Part shown: in pieces, positions 10,039 to 18,097 of the stretch
How the letters are laid out: the number at the start of each line of letters is the position of its first letter
Numbering within the stretch: the stretch's first letter is position 1
NCBI GenBank assembly: GCA_029553855.1
Contig: JAKPKE010000114.1
Location: forward strand, 1-64,000
Direction: 5' to 3'
Source of the DNA: Bacillota bacterium
Lineage (GTDB): Bacteria > Bacillota > Clostridia > Lutisporales > Lutisporaceae
Length of the DNA: 64,000 nucleotides
Notes under the pieces: generated by a model
Databases searched by the model: none
What the model was told of the DNA's origin: nothing
Seen by the model: only the letters and a program-made list of their open reading frames with translations
Made by a program: the position numbers and the translations under genes

Positions 10039-11694
10039 TTAAGCCGAAGCTGTATTACATCCCTCAACACCCAGTAGTTCTTCAATTCTCTCTTTTTCTG
10101 TCACAACCCTGTCAAGCTTTCTGGAATATGCCATGCACTTGCCTTCTACAATTCTTGTCTCCAATGTGCCCTTGGCACTGGGGTTTCCTCGTAAATGCGG
10201 CGCATCTATAATTCCCTTTCTTATAATATCCTCCAATACTTTCGGATCACTCCAAGGGTCTTTGCTTTCGGGATATAGCATTTGGATGGTATTCAGCAAG
10301 AATTCTGCTTCTTTTATCAGCTCATGCTTTCTCTGTTCAACTTCCCTATCCTGGCTCATATCCGCCATTCCGTCCAGAACGGAACGAATAACACCCCTTA
10401 CGATTTTTGTGCTTTCGATTACATCTTCAGGTTTTGCTGCATGATCCGCCTCACTGAAACCTACAACATGTACAATATGAGGCTTAATGCTCATAGCCAT
10501 ATATGTAGATGCAGCCAGCTGTCCTTTTGCAACGTCCAAATCGGCACTCAGGCTTGCCAATCCTGCCCTGACTTGCCTATATGTCTTAAATCTGCTATCT
10601 TCCAAGGACTCTATTAACTCTACCTTTGCCAGCATTTTGGCCAGATCCATTTTGTGGTGCATTGCCGGCGGGACATTAAACATATACTGCGCAATATAGT
10701 CTTTTACGCCCGCTTTCTTTGCATTGTAAGCTGCCAGAAATGCCATTGCAACACCGATTGTATCATGGGCATCACGCAGACTCCAATGATGGGCTTCATT
10801 TACCTCGATAGGTATACCCCACCCGGCATGAAGACTCATCAGCTGCTGTCCTTCGGCTATAGATTCGTGCACAGGTCTGGTGCCCCTGCCGTCCAGAACG
10901 TTATACCAGCATAGAGGCACTGCACACCAGGCATTATAGATGGTATCCCTGAGCACTTCGGCAAACCTGAATACATCTGCTGTTCCGCTGTAGCATCTGA
11001 GCAGCGGGAAATTGCCTCGTCTGGAAGCATCATATAATTTATTAAAATCTTCAATGCTTCTTATGGGGACACCGCCGGCGCCGTTCAGATCCGGATTAAT
11101 CTTATCAGGTGAAAAAAAGAACTGTTGTGTGTTCTGATCCGGCCCTATTGAGATAATATCCAGAGTCTTGGACTTCGCTATCATCTTGACTCCCTCAATT
11201 GTATCCTCCAAAGAAGGCAGTCCGAAATGATGCCTTAGCACAGGATAAGGGTATTTGCCGCTTATCCTGTCAACAATATTGTCCGCGTAGGAAACCTCAA
11301 TCTCTTTGAGATTTCTTCCCCTCAGGTAATTAATTACATCATCCAGGTCTTCTGTTCCATCAAATATGGCAGAAAGATATGGGAATTTCCCGGCAACCTC
11401 TGCTACAGGCTTTGTACCGCCAAAAATCCATTTAATATCTGTAAGACCCTTTTCCTGAATATGCATTTCCAGTTCTTTCAGCAAAGGTTCAACATTCCGG
11501 GGAGTGAGACGAAATCCAATCGCTACTACATCAGGCTTTATTTCTATGGTTTTCTCAACAAGCTTATCAATGCTTACTGCCGGACCAAGAAAGGATGTTT
11601 GATACCCTTCCTGTTCGGCAAGCCTGAGAAAATTAACTATGCCGCCGACGTGAACACAATTGCCGATAGCTGCTCCCAGATATTTTTTCATCAT
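10039..11694 (-). CDS. cobalamin-binding mutase-like enzyme
   Basis: A 551-residue protein combining a B12-binding Rossmann domain (about 1-130) with a long C-terminal region (about 190-490) that resembles the TIM-barrel part of glutamate-mutase-type enzymes. In the B12 domain the base-off histidine is H15 in NCVHVGG. The usual DxHxxG Asp is Cys, and the later GG is in WIFGGTKP. The ATGATG start overlaps the stop of the opine dehydrogenase gene (ATGA), implying translational coupling; AGGAGGTG lies before it. It is last in the c-di-AMP riboswitch operon. The two parts are normally separate chains in glutamate mutase, so this fused form is a distinct family. Isomerase activity is inferred; the substrate is unknown. 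Confidence 0.72.
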   Translation of the reverse strand: MMKKYLGAAIGNCVHVGGIVNFLRLAEQEGYQTSFLGPAVSIDKLVEKTIEIKPDVVAIGFRLTPRNVEPLLKELEMHIQEKGLTDIKWIFGGTKPVAEVAGKFPYLSAIFDGTEDLDDVINYLRGRNLKEIEVSYADNIVDRISGKYPYPVLRHHFGLPSLEDTIEGVKMIAKSKTLDIISIGPDQNTQQFFFSPDKINPDLNGAGGVPIRSIEDFNKLYDASRRGNFPLLRCYSGTADVFRFAEVLRDTIYNAWCAVPLCWYNVLDGRGTRPVHESIAEGQQLMSLHAGWGIPIEVNEAHHWSLRDAHDTIGVAMAFLAAYNAKKAGVKDYIAQYMFNVPPAMHHKMDLAKMLAKVELIESLEDSRFKTYRQVRAGLASLSADLDVAKGQLAASTYMAMSIKPHIVHVVGFSEADHAAKPEDVIESTKIVRGVIRSVLDGMADMSQDREVEQRKHELIKEAEFLLNTIQMLYPESKDPWSDPKVLEDIIRKGIIDAPHLRGNPSAKGTLETRIVEGKCMAYSRKLDRVVTEKERIEELLGVEGCNTASA

Positions 11695-12821
11695 GCTACC
11701 ACACCTCCTGTAGCATATACTTCACCGCTTATGACATAGCTCTTTATTTCATCAAGAGACAGCCCCAAAAGCCCCATGTCAACGACCTTTCTTCCTGACT
11801 TGTAATAGTCTTCCCCATGGATGACGGATGCTATTTGTATAATGGAATTTATTGTCGGTGTTTCTATTTCCAGATACTGTCCCATATCGGCAATTGGAAC
11901 GAGGCTTTGGGGAACATCCTCAAATATGTATCTTGTGTCCAAAGAAGCCGGCGCCTTGATGCCCCAATACCCTTTGACATTTGACAAAGCTTCGCAAAGT
12001 GTGTCCCCATAAGCATCATATGTATAGCCCAGCCATTCTCTCAGGGAAACAACTTCTGCCCCAAGAGCATCGGCTACCTGCATCCTTTCATAATCCACCT
12101 CTTCGATTATCTTTGCAACAGTAGGCGTGATACCGTCAATATAATACAGGAAGTCTCCTTTCGTGCTTTCAATCCTTCCACAGTTCAGAATTGTCGGAAT
12201 AGGGTGAAGTATCGCACCGATATTGTTAAAACTTGTGTCCAGTACACTATTTGTTTCAACAAATTCAGGTATGATATGATTGATTATCCCTATGAACTCC
12301 TTCGTTCTGACTGCCGGCAAAGCCGCCACCTTTACCTCATTTTTCCTGCTCAGTATTGCTACTTTTCCTTCCTCTATCACCCTGCATGCAAAAAGTAAAG
12401 TCTGCGCCTCTACCATACATACATCCTTCCCGGGATTGATATTTTGTATAATATTTTTGAATTCCAGGGCCCCCCCGGTTCTTCCTGGATTAAGAACAAT
12501 GTACTGACCCGAAGCAACATGGGGAGCAATAAGACCGGCGATATATTTATGGGCACTGGCCGGAACCGCGACCATGATAATATCTGCGCCGTTAATTGCA
12601 TGCTCTATGCTGTTTGTAACAATATTAATATATCCCCTGCCGGATATGCAGCCTTCCATTTCAATAAAACCTTGTTTTTGAATTTTTTCTACCTTTGTAA
12701 TTGTACGATTATAAAGATTTACTTTGTAACCGAGATGGGCCAGATAAGCAGCTATTCCCTGTCCCCCGTGGCCTCCTCCGATTACCGCAAAGTTGAGCTG
12801 TCTTTTTGAATTGTCAAACAT
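11691..12821 (-). CDS. octopine/nopaline (opine) dehydrogenase family protein
   Basis: A 376-residue two-domain oxidoreductase. The N-terminal NAD(P) Rossmann fold has GGGHGGQG at about 15-22 and the NPGRTGG loop near 115. The C-terminal octopine-DH domain (about 190-340) has the conserved Asn/His signature NNIGAILHPIPTILN, whose His is catalytic in characterised members. Family enzymes reductively couple an amino group to a 2-oxo acid, giving N-(carboxyalkyl) amino acids. It is the middle gene of the operon, 16 nt after the ATP-grasp gene and overlapping the B12 gene by 4 nt. Substrates are unknown. Confidence 0.9.
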   Translation of the reverse strand: MFDNSKRQLNFAVIGGGHGGQGIAAYLAHLGYKVNLYNRTITKVEKIQKQGFIEMEGCISGRGYINIVTNSIEHAINGADIIMVAVPASAHKYIAGLIAPHVASGQYIVLNPGRTGGALEFKNIIQNINPGKDVCMVEAQTLLFACRVIEEGKVAILSRKNEVKVAALPAVRTKEFIGIINHIIPEFVETNSVLDTSFNNIGAILHPIPTILNCGRIESTKGDFLYYIDGITPTVAKIIEEVDYERMQVADALGAEVVSLREWLGYTYDAYGDTLCEALSNVKGYWGIKAPASLDTRYIFEDVPQSLVPIADMGQYLEIETPTINSIIQIASVIHGEDYYKSGRKVVDMGLLGLSLDEIKSYVISGEVYATGGVVA

Positions 12822-12837
12822 TTGGCTTCCTCCTTTA

Positions 12838-13836
12838 TCATAAACTTTTATTACTGCTTTCTATTCTTGCTATTGCCTCATTAAGTATCCGAACAATCAA
12901 GTCTTCATAAGACATGTGCGCTGCTTCCGCCATCTTGGGCAAATCGCTGTACCCCGGTTTGAGCCCCGGCAGGCTGTTGATTTCTATTACATAAGGTTTC
13001 TCCTCCCTCATGAGGACGTCTGCTCTGGCAATGTCCCTGCATCCTAATGCATCAAAGGCCCTGGATACATTTTCTTTCAATGTTTTCTCCGTCTCAAGGC
13101 TCAGGGGTGCCGGACAATAGTATTTCGTCTGTTCTCCAAATTCTGTTTTTACTTCGAATGTGTAAAATCTGCCGTATTCCTCGGGAACATCCTTAAAGTC
13201 GATTTCCATAATAGGCAAAATTGTTTTATTTGCACCATTGCCTATTATTCCTACAGTGAATTCCCTGCCTTCAATAAATTCCTCTGCAATGGCCGGCGGC
13301 TGGTACAGCGCCAAAAGCTCCCGGATCTTATTAAATAAGGACTCCTCACTGTAAACCACACTGTCTTTATGGATTCCAAATCCTGAACCCTCACATCCCG
13401 GTTTTACAATCATAGGAAAAACCAGATTGGAATCTAATTTTTCTTTTCCGTCTTGAAATACCTGAAAGGCAGGTGTAGAAACATTATGAAATCGAAAAAT
13501 CTGCTTTGCCATTGCCTTGTTAAGGGCCAGACTGTGGGCAAGAACTCCGGAACCTACATATGGTATTCCCAGCATCTCCAATATTGCAGGTATCTGGGAC
13601 TGCCTGCTCTCCCCTTTTATGCCCGTGCTCAGATTAAAGGCAATATCAACATCACTTTTCATAAGTTTCTCTATAATTTTTTCATCTGCAACAATCTTTT
13701 CTGTTTCATACTTTTTGCAGAGAATTTTATAAATACTATCTGCTGTCACCTCTTTTTGCTCGTTGGAATGCCACGCCTCCGTGTTGTTTACTTCCAGATT
13801 TGGCTTATCAGTTATTAAACCGATTTTGTAGTCCAT
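12838..13836 (-). CDS. ATP-grasp ligase of the D-Ala-D-Ala ligase superfamily
   Basis: About 332 residues. The start is MDYKIG behind GGGGGG; the ATG 15 nt upstream overlaps that site and is unlikely. An N-terminal preATP-grasp domain (LVEKLM..DVDIAFNLSTG, GIPYVGSG) precedes the ATP-grasp core (KPGCEGSGFGI near 150) and the metal-binding end IEINSLPGLKPGYS. This is the Ddl fold, which makes an amide bond through an acyl phosphate. A housekeeping Ddl is not expected in this setting, and the opine dehydrogenase and B12 enzyme neighbours suggest a dedicated ligation step. It is the first gene of the operon, about 200 nt after the riboswitch terminator. Substrates are not predictable. Confidence 0.87.
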   Translation of the reverse strand: MDYKIGLITDKPNLEVNNTEAWHSNEQKEVTADSIYKILCKKYETEKIVADEKIIEKLMKSDVDIAFNLSTGIKGESRQSQIPAILEMLGIPYVGSGVLAHSLALNKAMAKQIFRFHNVSTPAFQVFQDGKEKLDSNLVFPMIVKPGCEGSGFGIHKDSVVYSEESLFNKIRELLALYQPPAIAEEFIEGREFTVGIIGNGANKTILPIMEIDFKDVPEEYGRFYTFEVKTEFGEQTKYYCPAPLSLETEKTLKENVSRAFDALGCRDIARADVLMREEKPYVIEINSLPGLKPGYSDLPKMAEAAHMSYEDLIVRILNEAIARIESSNKSL

Positions 13837-14039
13837 TATGATTCCCCCCATTTACCGATATTCTCTATTTTTTTAACCTTTGTAACAATAAAGTTCACAC
13901 CTGCTGCAGAATTTTGGGTACAAAAAACAAAGGAATTGTACAATGTAAAAATTCACTGAATACTAACACATTTTAAGATGGTGAAAGCTAAGTAGAAATT
14001 TAAATATGCTATAGATCAGGTTTATTGAAAAGAAGATTG

Positions 14040-14071
14040 AATAAAAGAAGCTGTGGAGATTTCCACAGCTT
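14040..14071 (-). terminator. riboswitch expression-platform terminator
   Basis: Minus strand AAGCTGTGGA / TCCACAGCTT, a perfect 10-bp stem with an AATC loop, then CTTTTATT. It follows the c-di-AMP aptamer by about 25 nt and precedes the first gene by about 200 nt, so it should be the switch-controlled intrinsic terminator. Confidence 0.88.
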
Positions 14072-14094
14072 TTGCTTACAGCAATCCAAGATAA

Positions 14095-14265
14095 AAGTCT
14101 CATATGCAACAAGACTTATCCCATCCTTGCTCCTATCTCCTTCTCTCTACGCTTACGAGGTTAGCTGACGGATTCGGATCGAAAGAAGTTGACCCTACTC
14201 TATGTATCATAGAGATTCACCCCATAAATTGGTTCCCCCGCTTCTTATGAATTCAGCGCATTGCA
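14095..14265 (-). ncRNA. c-di-AMP riboswitch (ydaO-yuaA type)
   Basis: The minus strand contains the ydaO core almost verbatim: GGGGGAACCA, TGGGGTGAATC, AGGGTCAACTT, then ATCCGAATCCGTCAGC and TAACCTCGTAAGC, followed by the GAAGGAG strand. These blocks form the two-fold pseudo-symmetric aptamer that binds two c-di-AMP molecules. A terminator follows, so the arrangement is that of a transcriptional OFF switch: high c-di-AMP should stop expression of the ATP-grasp, opine dehydrogenase and B12 genes. Boundaries are approximate. Confidence 0.96.
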
Positions 14266-14286
14266 ATATTCAGTTTGATTTAACTA

Positions 14287-14315
14287 ATTCTAACATATGT
14301 CACAAGCTTTGTAAA
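14287..14315 (-). promoter_or_regulatory. promoter of the riboswitch operon
   Basis: Minus strand TTTACA (14310-14315), 17-nt spacer, TAGAAT (14287-14292). Initiation would fall near 14280, just before the aptamer. Confidence 0.65.
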
Positions 14316-14512: not shown

Positions 14513-14582
14513 CTGTTTATCCGGTTGCTAGAACTTAGCCGTTGCATATACACTGTAAAATAAATATGAAAGGGGTATGCCA

Positions 14583-15953
14583 ATGGGTTTTAATTTTGCA
14601 GAATGGCTGATGGAGCCGTTTGTCTTGATGTTTATTGCTGTAGCCGCAGGCTTATTATTTGGAAAAATAAAATTTGGAAAATTCAACTTTGGAATTTCAG
14701 GGGCCTTGTTTACCGGGCTTATTATCGGATGGTTCATTTATAGATATGCCGGCAGCGTATTACTAAATGACAATTCTAATAAATCAGCACAAAAACTGAT
14801 AGATTCAGGAGTTATCGACAACGGTTTTTTTACTATGTTCCTGGTGTTATTTGTTGTTGCGGTAGGGTTGTTGGCTGCAAAGGATCTGGATATTGTAATT
14901 AAAAAGTACGGCGTGAAATTCATTGTACTTGGTGTTTTAATTACATTCGTAGGAGCAGCTGCAACGTATTGTTTGACAGTTTTATTGGAGGATGCGAACC
15001 CTTATGAAGTATCAGGGGTTTATACCGGAGCCTTGACAAGCTCTCCGGGTCTTGCGGCAGCTATTGAAACGGCAAATATACAAGCAGCAATGAGAATTGA
15101 GCACTATGATTCTCTGAGTATGGATGAAAAGGCTAAAATAATATCAATAATAGATAAAAATCTTGACCCATCAGCGGTAACAGCTTTGACGGAGGATCAG
15201 AAAATGCAATTTGTCAAGAATGCTGTGGCAGGTGTCGGTACAGGTTATGCAATCACTTATGCCTTTGGAGTGCTGATTGTTATTTTTTCAGTAACCTTCT
15301 TCCCCATGATCTTCAGGATTGATATTGAAGAAGAAAAAAAGGCATTCAGCATGGAAATGTCGGAAGCCAGAGCCTCTTTTTCCAGGAAAGAAATTAAAGA
15401 AGTCGATTTTGATTTAATCGGTTTCATCGCTGCATGCCTATTTGGTTATACAATAGGACTAATTGTTATCAGGTTTAGTGCAATAGGCTTTAAAGATTTC
15501 AGCCTAAGTGCAACAGGAGGTGCGCTCATTGGTTCCTTAATACTTGGATATATCGGGAAAATCGGGTTTATATACTTTAGAATGAACAGTAAGGTTTTAG
15601 GCGTTATTCGCCAGATGTCTTTAGCCTTCTTCTTAGCCATCGTAGGCTTGAAAAATGGCTATAAAGTGTTCGAGGCAATTGCCGCATCAGGCGCTTATCT
15701 TGTTCTTGTATCGTTAGTCGTTGGATTTGCAGCAATAATGGCTGGGTATATTGTAGGCAGGTACGTTTTCAAAATCAACTGGATTATGCTGTCAGGAGCC
15801 ATTTGCGGTGGTATGACTTCCACTCCCGGTCTCGGGGCGGCAATAGATGCCATCGGCAGTGACGACCCCGCAGCGGGATATGGCGCGGCTTATCCTTTTG
15901 CACTGCTGGGAATGGTTTTGTTTACTATAATATTATATACCCTGCCCATGTAG
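14583..15953 (+). CDS. aspartate-alanine exchanger (AAEx/AspT-YidE) family transporter
   Basis: A 456-residue polytopic membrane protein with about ten transmembrane helices. It carries the two inverted copies of the Asp-Al_Ex domain, each with its signature: GALTSSPGLAAA in the first half and GGMTSTPGLGAA in the second. A soluble loop near 170-210 and a charged stretch (EEEKKAFSMEMSEARASF) separate the halves. The start at 14583 has AGGGG at 7-nt spacing; the ATG 6 nt earlier is too close. Family members exchange aspartate or related acids for alanine or succinate. Divergence from the riboswitch operon suggests it may move that pathway's substrate or product. Confidence 0.88.
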   Translation: MGFNFAEWLMEPFVLMFIAVAAGLLFGKIKFGKFNFGISGALFTGLIIGWFIYRYAGSVLLNDNSNKSAQKLIDSGVIDNGFFTMFLVLFVVAVGLLAAKDLDIVIKKYGVKFIVLGVLITFVGAAATYCLTVLLEDANPYEVSGVYTGALTSSPGLAAAIETANIQAAMRIEHYDSLSMDEKAKIISIIDKNLDPSAVTALTEDQKMQFVKNAVAGVGTGYAITYAFGVLIVIFSVTFFPMIFRIDIEEEKKAFSMEMSEARASFSRKEIKEVDFDLIGFIAACLFGYTIGLIVIRFSAIGFKDFSLSATGGALIGSLILGYIGKIGFIYFRMNSKVLGVIRQMSLAFFLAIVGLKNGYKVFEAIAASGAYLVLVSLVVGFAAIMAGYIVGRYVFKINWIMLSGAICGGMTSTPGLGAAIDAIGSDDPAAGYGAAYPFALLGMVLFTIILYTLPM

Positions 15954-17987: not shown

Positions 17988-18022
17988 AATAAATAAACCT
18001 TCACGCCCGCGGCATGAAGGTT
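17988..18022 (-). terminator. pyr leader attenuator terminator
   Basis: Minus strand AACCTTCA / TGAAGGTT, perfect 8-bp stem with a GC-rich loop (GCCGCGGGCG), then TATTTATT. It lies between the two PyrR elements and is the expected UMP/UTP-responsive attenuation stem. Confidence 0.8.
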
Positions 18023-18059
18023 ATACCTATCACATAAGTACAATATCCGGCTCCTTCTT

Positions 18060-18073
18060 AGCCTCACGGGGCT
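18060..18073 (-). promoter_or_regulatory. PyrR-binding element 1 in the pyr leader
   Basis: The minus-strand RNA reads AGCCCCGUGAGGCU, close to the PyrR consensus. It is flanked by the same CCTTTAA...AAGAAGGAG context as element 2, so the two leader blocks look like a duplication. Confidence 0.83.
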
Positions 18074-18097
18074 AAATTAAAGGTTTTCTTTTTTTTA

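Follow-up and report, generated by a model that had tools for sequence, protein, structure and literature searches.

The window analysed here is a stretch of 64,000 nucleotides (positions 1 to 64,000, forward strand) of contig JAKPKE010000114.1, from a Bacillota bacterium of the family Lutisporaceae (GenBank assembly GCA_029553855.1). It carries an operon of three genes, encoding an ATP-grasp ligase (LIG), an opine dehydrogenase (ODH) and an adenosylcobalamin (AdoCbl) mutase (MUT), behind a leader that contains a riboswitch for cyclic di-AMP (c-di-AMP). The features, in the order of transcription, are as follows.

14315..14287, minus strand: promoter-like element, TTTACA-17-TAGAAT, with TG before the -10; called by consensus match only, 10 of 12 positions
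14268..14135, minus strand: c-di-AMP riboswitch aptamer of the ydaO/yuaA type, RF00379; covariance match by cmscan
14071..14048, minus strand: intrinsic-terminator-like hairpin (expression platform); 10-bp stem, loop of 4, T-rich tail
13851..12838, minus strand: LIG, Ddl-like ATP-grasp ligase, 337 amino acids (aa); PF07478, 2e-35
12821..11691, minus strand: ODH, opine dehydrogenase of the CENDH type, 376 aa; PF02317, 1e-44
11694..10039, minus strand: MUT, single-chain AdoCbl mutase, 551 aa; B12 domain and glutamate-mutase-type barrel
11407..11679, minus strand: B12-binding domain of MUT, aa 6-96; PF02310, axial His15 in CxHxxG
10075..11277, minus strand: MutE-like barrel of MUT, about aa 140-540; Foldseek and hhalign

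The genes are closely packed, with a gap of 16 bases between LIG and ODH and an overlap of 4 bases between ODH and MUT. The initial annotation had described a riboswitch with promoter and terminator followed by three packed or overlapping genes, and the covariance match, the Pfam matches and the spacing bear out this layout at the positions given above.

The aptamer matches the entire RF00379 model (positions 1-134 of 134) with 105.4 bits (E 4.8e-24), where the gathering score is 38, and a genome-wide search with the same model returned an identical score. The call rests on this covariance score: folding the leader to its minimum free energy (MFE) gives a structure only slightly more stable than those of shuffled sequences (z -1.63). 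An expression platform is present in the form of the terminator-like hairpin between the aptamer and LIG, which is also seen in the MFE fold. This region is not enriched in promoter-like sites relative to shuffled sequence; the promoter call therefore rests on its position and not on the match. The window genome encodes three DAC (c-di-AMP synthase) domains. A weak second RF00379 match, below the cut-off at 28.6 bits, lies at G000:C7:31649-31776 (locus L201; G, C and L numbers are our labels for genomes, contigs and loci), upstream of a gene resembling peptidoglycan-binding proteins.

Of 391 genomes of the window's class, 21 contain MUT; in a wider draw from the phylum it is present in 87 of 398 genomes, and Thermotogota carry it too. 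Lutispora thermophila DSM 19022 has the LIG-ODH-MUT trio, with no riboswitch, and Sedimentibacter acidaminivorans has the MUT-ODH pair. ODH and MUT are same-strand neighbours in 96 of 100 genomes; of the four exceptions, one is at a contig end. The order of the genes varies (ODH-MUT, MUT-ODH, LIG-ODH-MUT and ODH-LIG-MutL-MUT), which argues for a functional rather than a merely inherited linkage. LIG is missing from most loci, and the LIG-ODH-MUT trio was accordingly rejected as the conserved unit; that unit is the MUT-ODH pair, with LIG as an optional third gene.

Among the 92 loci with enough upstream sequence, 37 have RF00379 on the same strand, ahead of the first gene by 5-805 nt (median 109); these loci span 17 families and 24 genera. 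The window and an Alkaliphilus locus (L027) are two further riboswitch-led cases. By our own arithmetic, the number of such adjacencies expected by chance is about 0.02, taking the 145 RF00379 matches in the MUT-carrying genomes, an 850-base window on one strand and 100 genomes of about 2.6 Mb; no RF00379 match on the opposite strand is listed within the MUT loci retrieved. A tandem pair of c-di-AMP riboswitches precedes ODH-MUT in G437 (L111:9549-9938). The riboswitch-controlled operon put forward in the initial annotation is genuine and widely conserved. The co-occurrence and upstream riboswitches that it proposed to look for in clostridial genomes were recovered for the MUT-ODH pair, with LIG at a minority of loci; the trio did not stand as the unit.

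Genes that are split from the locus behave in the same way. Where MUT stands isolated (G659, G735 and G694), ODH lies elsewhere, directly behind a c-di-AMP riboswitch of its own, in all three cases (L192, L196, L202), and G743 has a second ODH behind its own riboswitch (L226). LIG alone follows its own riboswitch in three genomes of one genus (G539, G613 and G506; L189, L222, L223), as do AsnB-like genes in G723 and G429 (L224, L230, L231). Because the scattered genes keep the same regulator, LIG, ODH and MUT would appear to belong to one pathway, and we consider this the strongest argument for it. A different form of c-di-AMP control may operate at L047, where a protein of GntR-TrkA_C (BusR) architecture and a CdAMP_rec protein start an operon with MUT-ODH that has no riboswitch; a GntR-TrkA_C gene is also found just upstream of MUT at L035. 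BusR is reported to regulate how lactic acid bacteria and streptococci take up compatible solutes (PMC6108528, PMC5919688). Taken over all the genomes compared, it is nearly certain that the locus is associated with c-di-AMP regulation and that its genes are functionally linked.

The third partner differs between lineages. Of the 100 loci, 19 (in 9 families) carry an ATP-grasp ligase, Ddl-like or of another kind. At 9 loci, from 7 families, MUT-ODH has an asparagine-synthase-like protein next to it or nearby, and no locus has both. LIG is replaced by this AsnB-like amidotransferase in other lineages. LIG itself has the ATP-grasp C-terminal domain of Ddl and not its N-terminal GGxSxExxV motif, which is found in none of 21 LIGs and in two of three local Ddls. 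It scores 178 bits against the Ddl model TIGR01205, where 245.65 are required, and LIG sequences form a clade separate from Ddl. A true Ddl is encoded on another contig of the window genome (C303, 373 bits). On these grounds LIG was rejected as the D-Ala-D-Ala ligase of the cell. In one genus, an ornithine-racemase-like Ala_racemase_N protein (L126:9927-10988, L136:3632-4693) and a GNAT acetyltransferase are located near LIG, ODH and MUT.

ODH scores 152 bits against PF02317 (cut-off 30). Its closest solved relative is N-(1-D-carboxylethyl)-L-norvaline dehydrogenase (CENDH; PDB ID: 1bg6, E 8e-76), to which it aligns over residues 10-362, nearly the whole chain; octopine dehydrogenase (3c7a) is a distant homologue. 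Residues H206, R297 and D302 are invariant in 16 sequences, H206 and D302 being presumably the catalytic His-Asp pair and R297 the substrate arginine. Judged by sequence, ODH is a member of the opine dehydrogenase/CENDH family, with reductive condensation of an amino acid and an oxo acid as its predicted reaction. With CENDH and octopine dehydrogenase it has the full-length homology and the conserved His, Arg and Asp in common, and it differs from them in its genomic partner. Opine dehydrogenases also make metallophores of the staphylopine type, but a metallophore pathway is hardly credible here: ODH is a CENDH-like member of PF02317, the neighbourhoods contain no nicotianamine-synthase-like or recurrent metal-transport genes, and control is by c-di-AMP and not by metal.

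The B12-binding domain of the window MUT matches PF02310 at 3e-7, slightly below the Pfam cut-off, which its homologues exceed. His15 is conserved in every aligned row that covers it; of the DxHxxG motif, the histidine and glycine are kept in all covering rows and the aspartate is mostly replaced by cysteine, being retained in L152, in L158 and in the branch of L057 type. A PDB sequence search with MUT finds B12 domains only, and the barrel was detected by comparison of structures and profiles. In an AlphaFold2 model (mean predicted local distance difference test score 86) the best Foldseek match is the epsilon subunit of glutamate mutase (1cb7_B, E 2.9e-15); the MUT profile aligns with real GlmE sequences across 388 columns (hhalign, E 1.8e-8), and PF06368 is matched directly by 4 of 18 MUT homologues, at up to 1e-6.

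A MutL reactivase-type protein is found beside MUT at 11 loci, and at L172:5306-9007 MUT and MutL are apparently fused in one frame of 1,233 aa, beside ODH and oligopeptide ATP-binding cassette (ABC) genes. The window genome has no dedicated MutL for MUT, its only MutL being located in an operon of D-ornithine-aminomutase type, and it is possible that MUT shares this protein. The barrel homology and the MutL linkage would also fit a variant of the methylaspartate pathway of glutamate fermentation, with MUT as a fused glutamate mutase. However, the arginines R66, R100 and R149 of GlmE, which we take to be its glutamate-binding claw, align with H156, Q190 and Y235 of MUT, all invariant, in an alignment that is remote (17% identity) and could be shifted by two positions, as R154 and R233, two residues before H156 and Y235, are invariant as well. 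Only 4 of 33 MUT members match the MutE equivalog TIGR01503 at all (best E 1.4e-5), far under its cut-off of 390 bits, whereas real GlmE sequences score 432-829 bits; nor does a methylaspartase-like gene recur in the neighbourhoods. We therefore disfavour the assignment of MUT as a glutamate mutase and regard the methylaspartate variant as very improbable. Identity with the pyridoxal phosphate (PLP)- and B12-dependent D-ornithine 4,5- and lysine 5,6-aminomutases (OraE, KamDE) is likewise disfavoured: fold and B12 domain are similar, but the IKHGG segment of OraE, which presumably holds the PLP lysine, is an insertion with no counterpart in MUT. Since the barrel is homologous and the claw arginines are at other positions, MUT is best described, on this alignment, as related to glutamate mutase, with a substrate site that has been remodelled. 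Compared with GlmS/GlmE, it shares the B12 domain, the barrel and the occasional MutL partner; it differs in being a single chain with the B12 domain first, in the cysteine that mostly replaces the aspartate of its B12 motif and in its opine dehydrogenase partner.

In Gram-positive bacteria, the uptake of K+ and of osmolytes is known to be under the control of c-di-AMP. We propose that the operon encodes the synthesis of a compatible solute derived from an amino acid, under repression by c-di-AMP, and place the probability of this explanation at roughly 0.55. At low c-di-AMP (low K+, osmotic stress) transcription would pass the terminator; at high c-di-AMP, when K+ and turgor are sufficient, the ligand would bind the leader, the terminator would form and synthesis would be switched off. 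MUT, as a radical mutase that uses AdoCbl and is of the same type as glutamate mutase, would rearrange the carbon skeleton of its substrate, either an amino acid or a dicarboxylic acid; before or after this step, ODH would reductively N-alkylate an amino acid with a 2-oxo acid, giving an opine-type secondary amine. LIG in the window, or the AsnB-like amidotransferase in other lineages, would then convert a carboxylate into an amide at the expense of ATP, and the resulting solute would be only weakly charged. This keeps in outline the sequence of mutase, reductive N-alkylation and ATP-dependent amide formation at low c-di-AMP suggested by the initial annotation, with a mutase that lacks the glutamate claw at the aligned positions.

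The adjacency of MUT and ODH, the frequency of the riboswitch and its retention by the split genes all count towards this explanation, as do the BusR-like and CdAMP_rec genes, the MutL linkage and the GlmE-homologous barrel. The riboswitch, the linkage and co-regulation of the genes and the enzyme classes are well supported by sequence; the osmolyte role, the direction of ODH, the order of the steps, the substrates, the product and the OFF polarity of the switch are what we infer. A further point is the mutual exclusion of LIG and AsnB, which recalls the amidation logic of N-acetylglutaminylglutamine amide (NAGGN), an osmolyte amidated by asnO. The AsnB-like protein of the sister loci resembles the capping amidotransferase of the NAGGN pathway (asnO/ngg), and LIG takes its place in the window; no ngg gene was seen.

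Another parallel is found in Dehalobacter, where a c-di-AMP (and Na+) riboswitch acting as an OFF switch gates the lysine 2,3-aminomutase for the osmolyte N-epsilon-acetyl-beta-lysine (PMC9337991). This precedent also counts in favour: in both systems a c-di-AMP riboswitch stands ahead of a mutase, and the product, an osmolyte there, would be one here. They differ in that MUT is an AdoCbl enzyme and not a radical S-adenosylmethionine (SAM) enzyme, in the added opine dehydrogenase and in the end enzyme. The logic of a mutase, an ATP-grasp ligase and a dehydrogenase is also that of the pyrrolysine set PylB/PylC/PylD. The ligases at L034 and L096 have a PylC-like N domain; the present system has no radical SAM PylB and its dehydrogenase is of a different family.

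Several observations weigh against the compatible-solute explanation. More than half of the MUT-ODH loci, including the trios of Lutispora and Thermotogota, have no riboswitch, and at L045 in G150 the leader just upstream of ODH-MUT is a fluoride riboswitch (RF01734, 50 bits, L045:7364-7425). Within the same genomes, c-di-AMP riboswitches also precede wall-hydrolase-like and peptidoglycan-binding-like genes, so that the link to c-di-AMP does not single out osmolytes; K+/Na+ transporter-like genes follow the same riboswitch class as well (these, like the aminotransferase, deacylase, dipeptide-transporter and ornithine-aminomutase assignments in this report, are named from sequence). Some relatives, moreover, are located among polysaccharide genes (L054, L034 and L096). 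In the principal alternative, an unusual amino acid or opine would be ligated into peptidoglycan or a surface glycan, and the control by c-di-AMP would reflect wall remodelling. This envelope role is unlikely but still a live rival, with several points to its credit: LIG is Ddl-like, wall-type genes are regular targets of the riboswitch, and opine-type amino acids occur in some O-antigens. Moreover, L054 has ODH, an ATP-grasp protein (L054:9722-10918) and MUT within a polysaccharide-type cluster, and the PylC-like proteins at L034:2191-3393 and L096:9022-10248 stand beside MUT-ODH and a DegT-type-aminotransferase-like gene. However, LIG is missing from most riboswitch-controlled loci and AsnB takes its place at others, the BusR and CdAMP_rec association suggests osmolytes, and loci of the common type have no recurrent Mur or glycosyltransferase neighbours. 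The other ATP-grasp types at L034, L096 and L054 (PylC-like N domain; ATPgrasp_Ter) may be envelope-directed paralogues.

In five genomes that carry MUT-ODH (G639, G764, G659, G620 and G310; L185, L188, L193, L219, L220), Opp-type peptide transporters immediately follow c-di-AMP riboswitches, an SBP_bac_5 domain being shown for the transporter at L193. These could belong to a catabolic or salvage pathway, in which ODH would work oxidatively to split imported opines or peptides and MUT would rearrange the acid released. The dipeptide-type ABC transporter and N-acyl-D-amino-acid-deacylase-like gene upstream of ODH-MUT at L045, and the oligopeptide ABC genes beside ODH and MUT-MutL at L172, point the same way. 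Against this, ATP-dependent, amide-forming third partners suit synthesis and expression at low c-di-AMP suits accumulation. A solute is often both imported and synthesised, and the transporters therefore fit the compatible-solute explanation too, possibly as the uptake route for the same solute; we consider catabolism improbable.

Two neighbouring features of the window lie outside this system. An AspT/YidE-like permease gene (14577-15953, plus strand; 458 aa against a 562-position AspT model) is divergent from the operon and outside the riboswitch transcript, and an ordinary PyrR binding site (17989-18087, minus strand) lies upstream of an aspartate-carbamoyltransferase-like gene.

The view of the initial annotation that the gene set had no earlier description agrees with our literature search, which found nothing joining c-di-AMP with opine dehydrogenase, glutamate mutase, asparagine synthase or ATP-grasp proteins; the gene tables of ydaO surveys, including Nelson et al. 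2013, were outside that search and may list these genes. The gating by c-di-AMP of an osmolyte mutase and of BusR-type osmolyte uptake is already known, and MUT with ODH under c-di-AMP seems to be undescribed. At slightly less than even odds, the locus may make bacterial compatible solutes of a new and widespread class, amino acids of opine type with a rearranged skeleton and an amide cap, through a new AdoCbl mutase family, and its pathway may be one of the most frequent targets of c-di-AMP riboswitches in Clostridia-type carriers. If the proposed route is correct, it would add a whole biosynthetic pathway to the reach of c-di-AMP, in lineages with gut, rumen and thermophilic anaerobes among their members. 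It would also define a family of B12-dependent mutases; solving their substrate would reveal a new AdoCbl reaction and, probably, a new solute as well.

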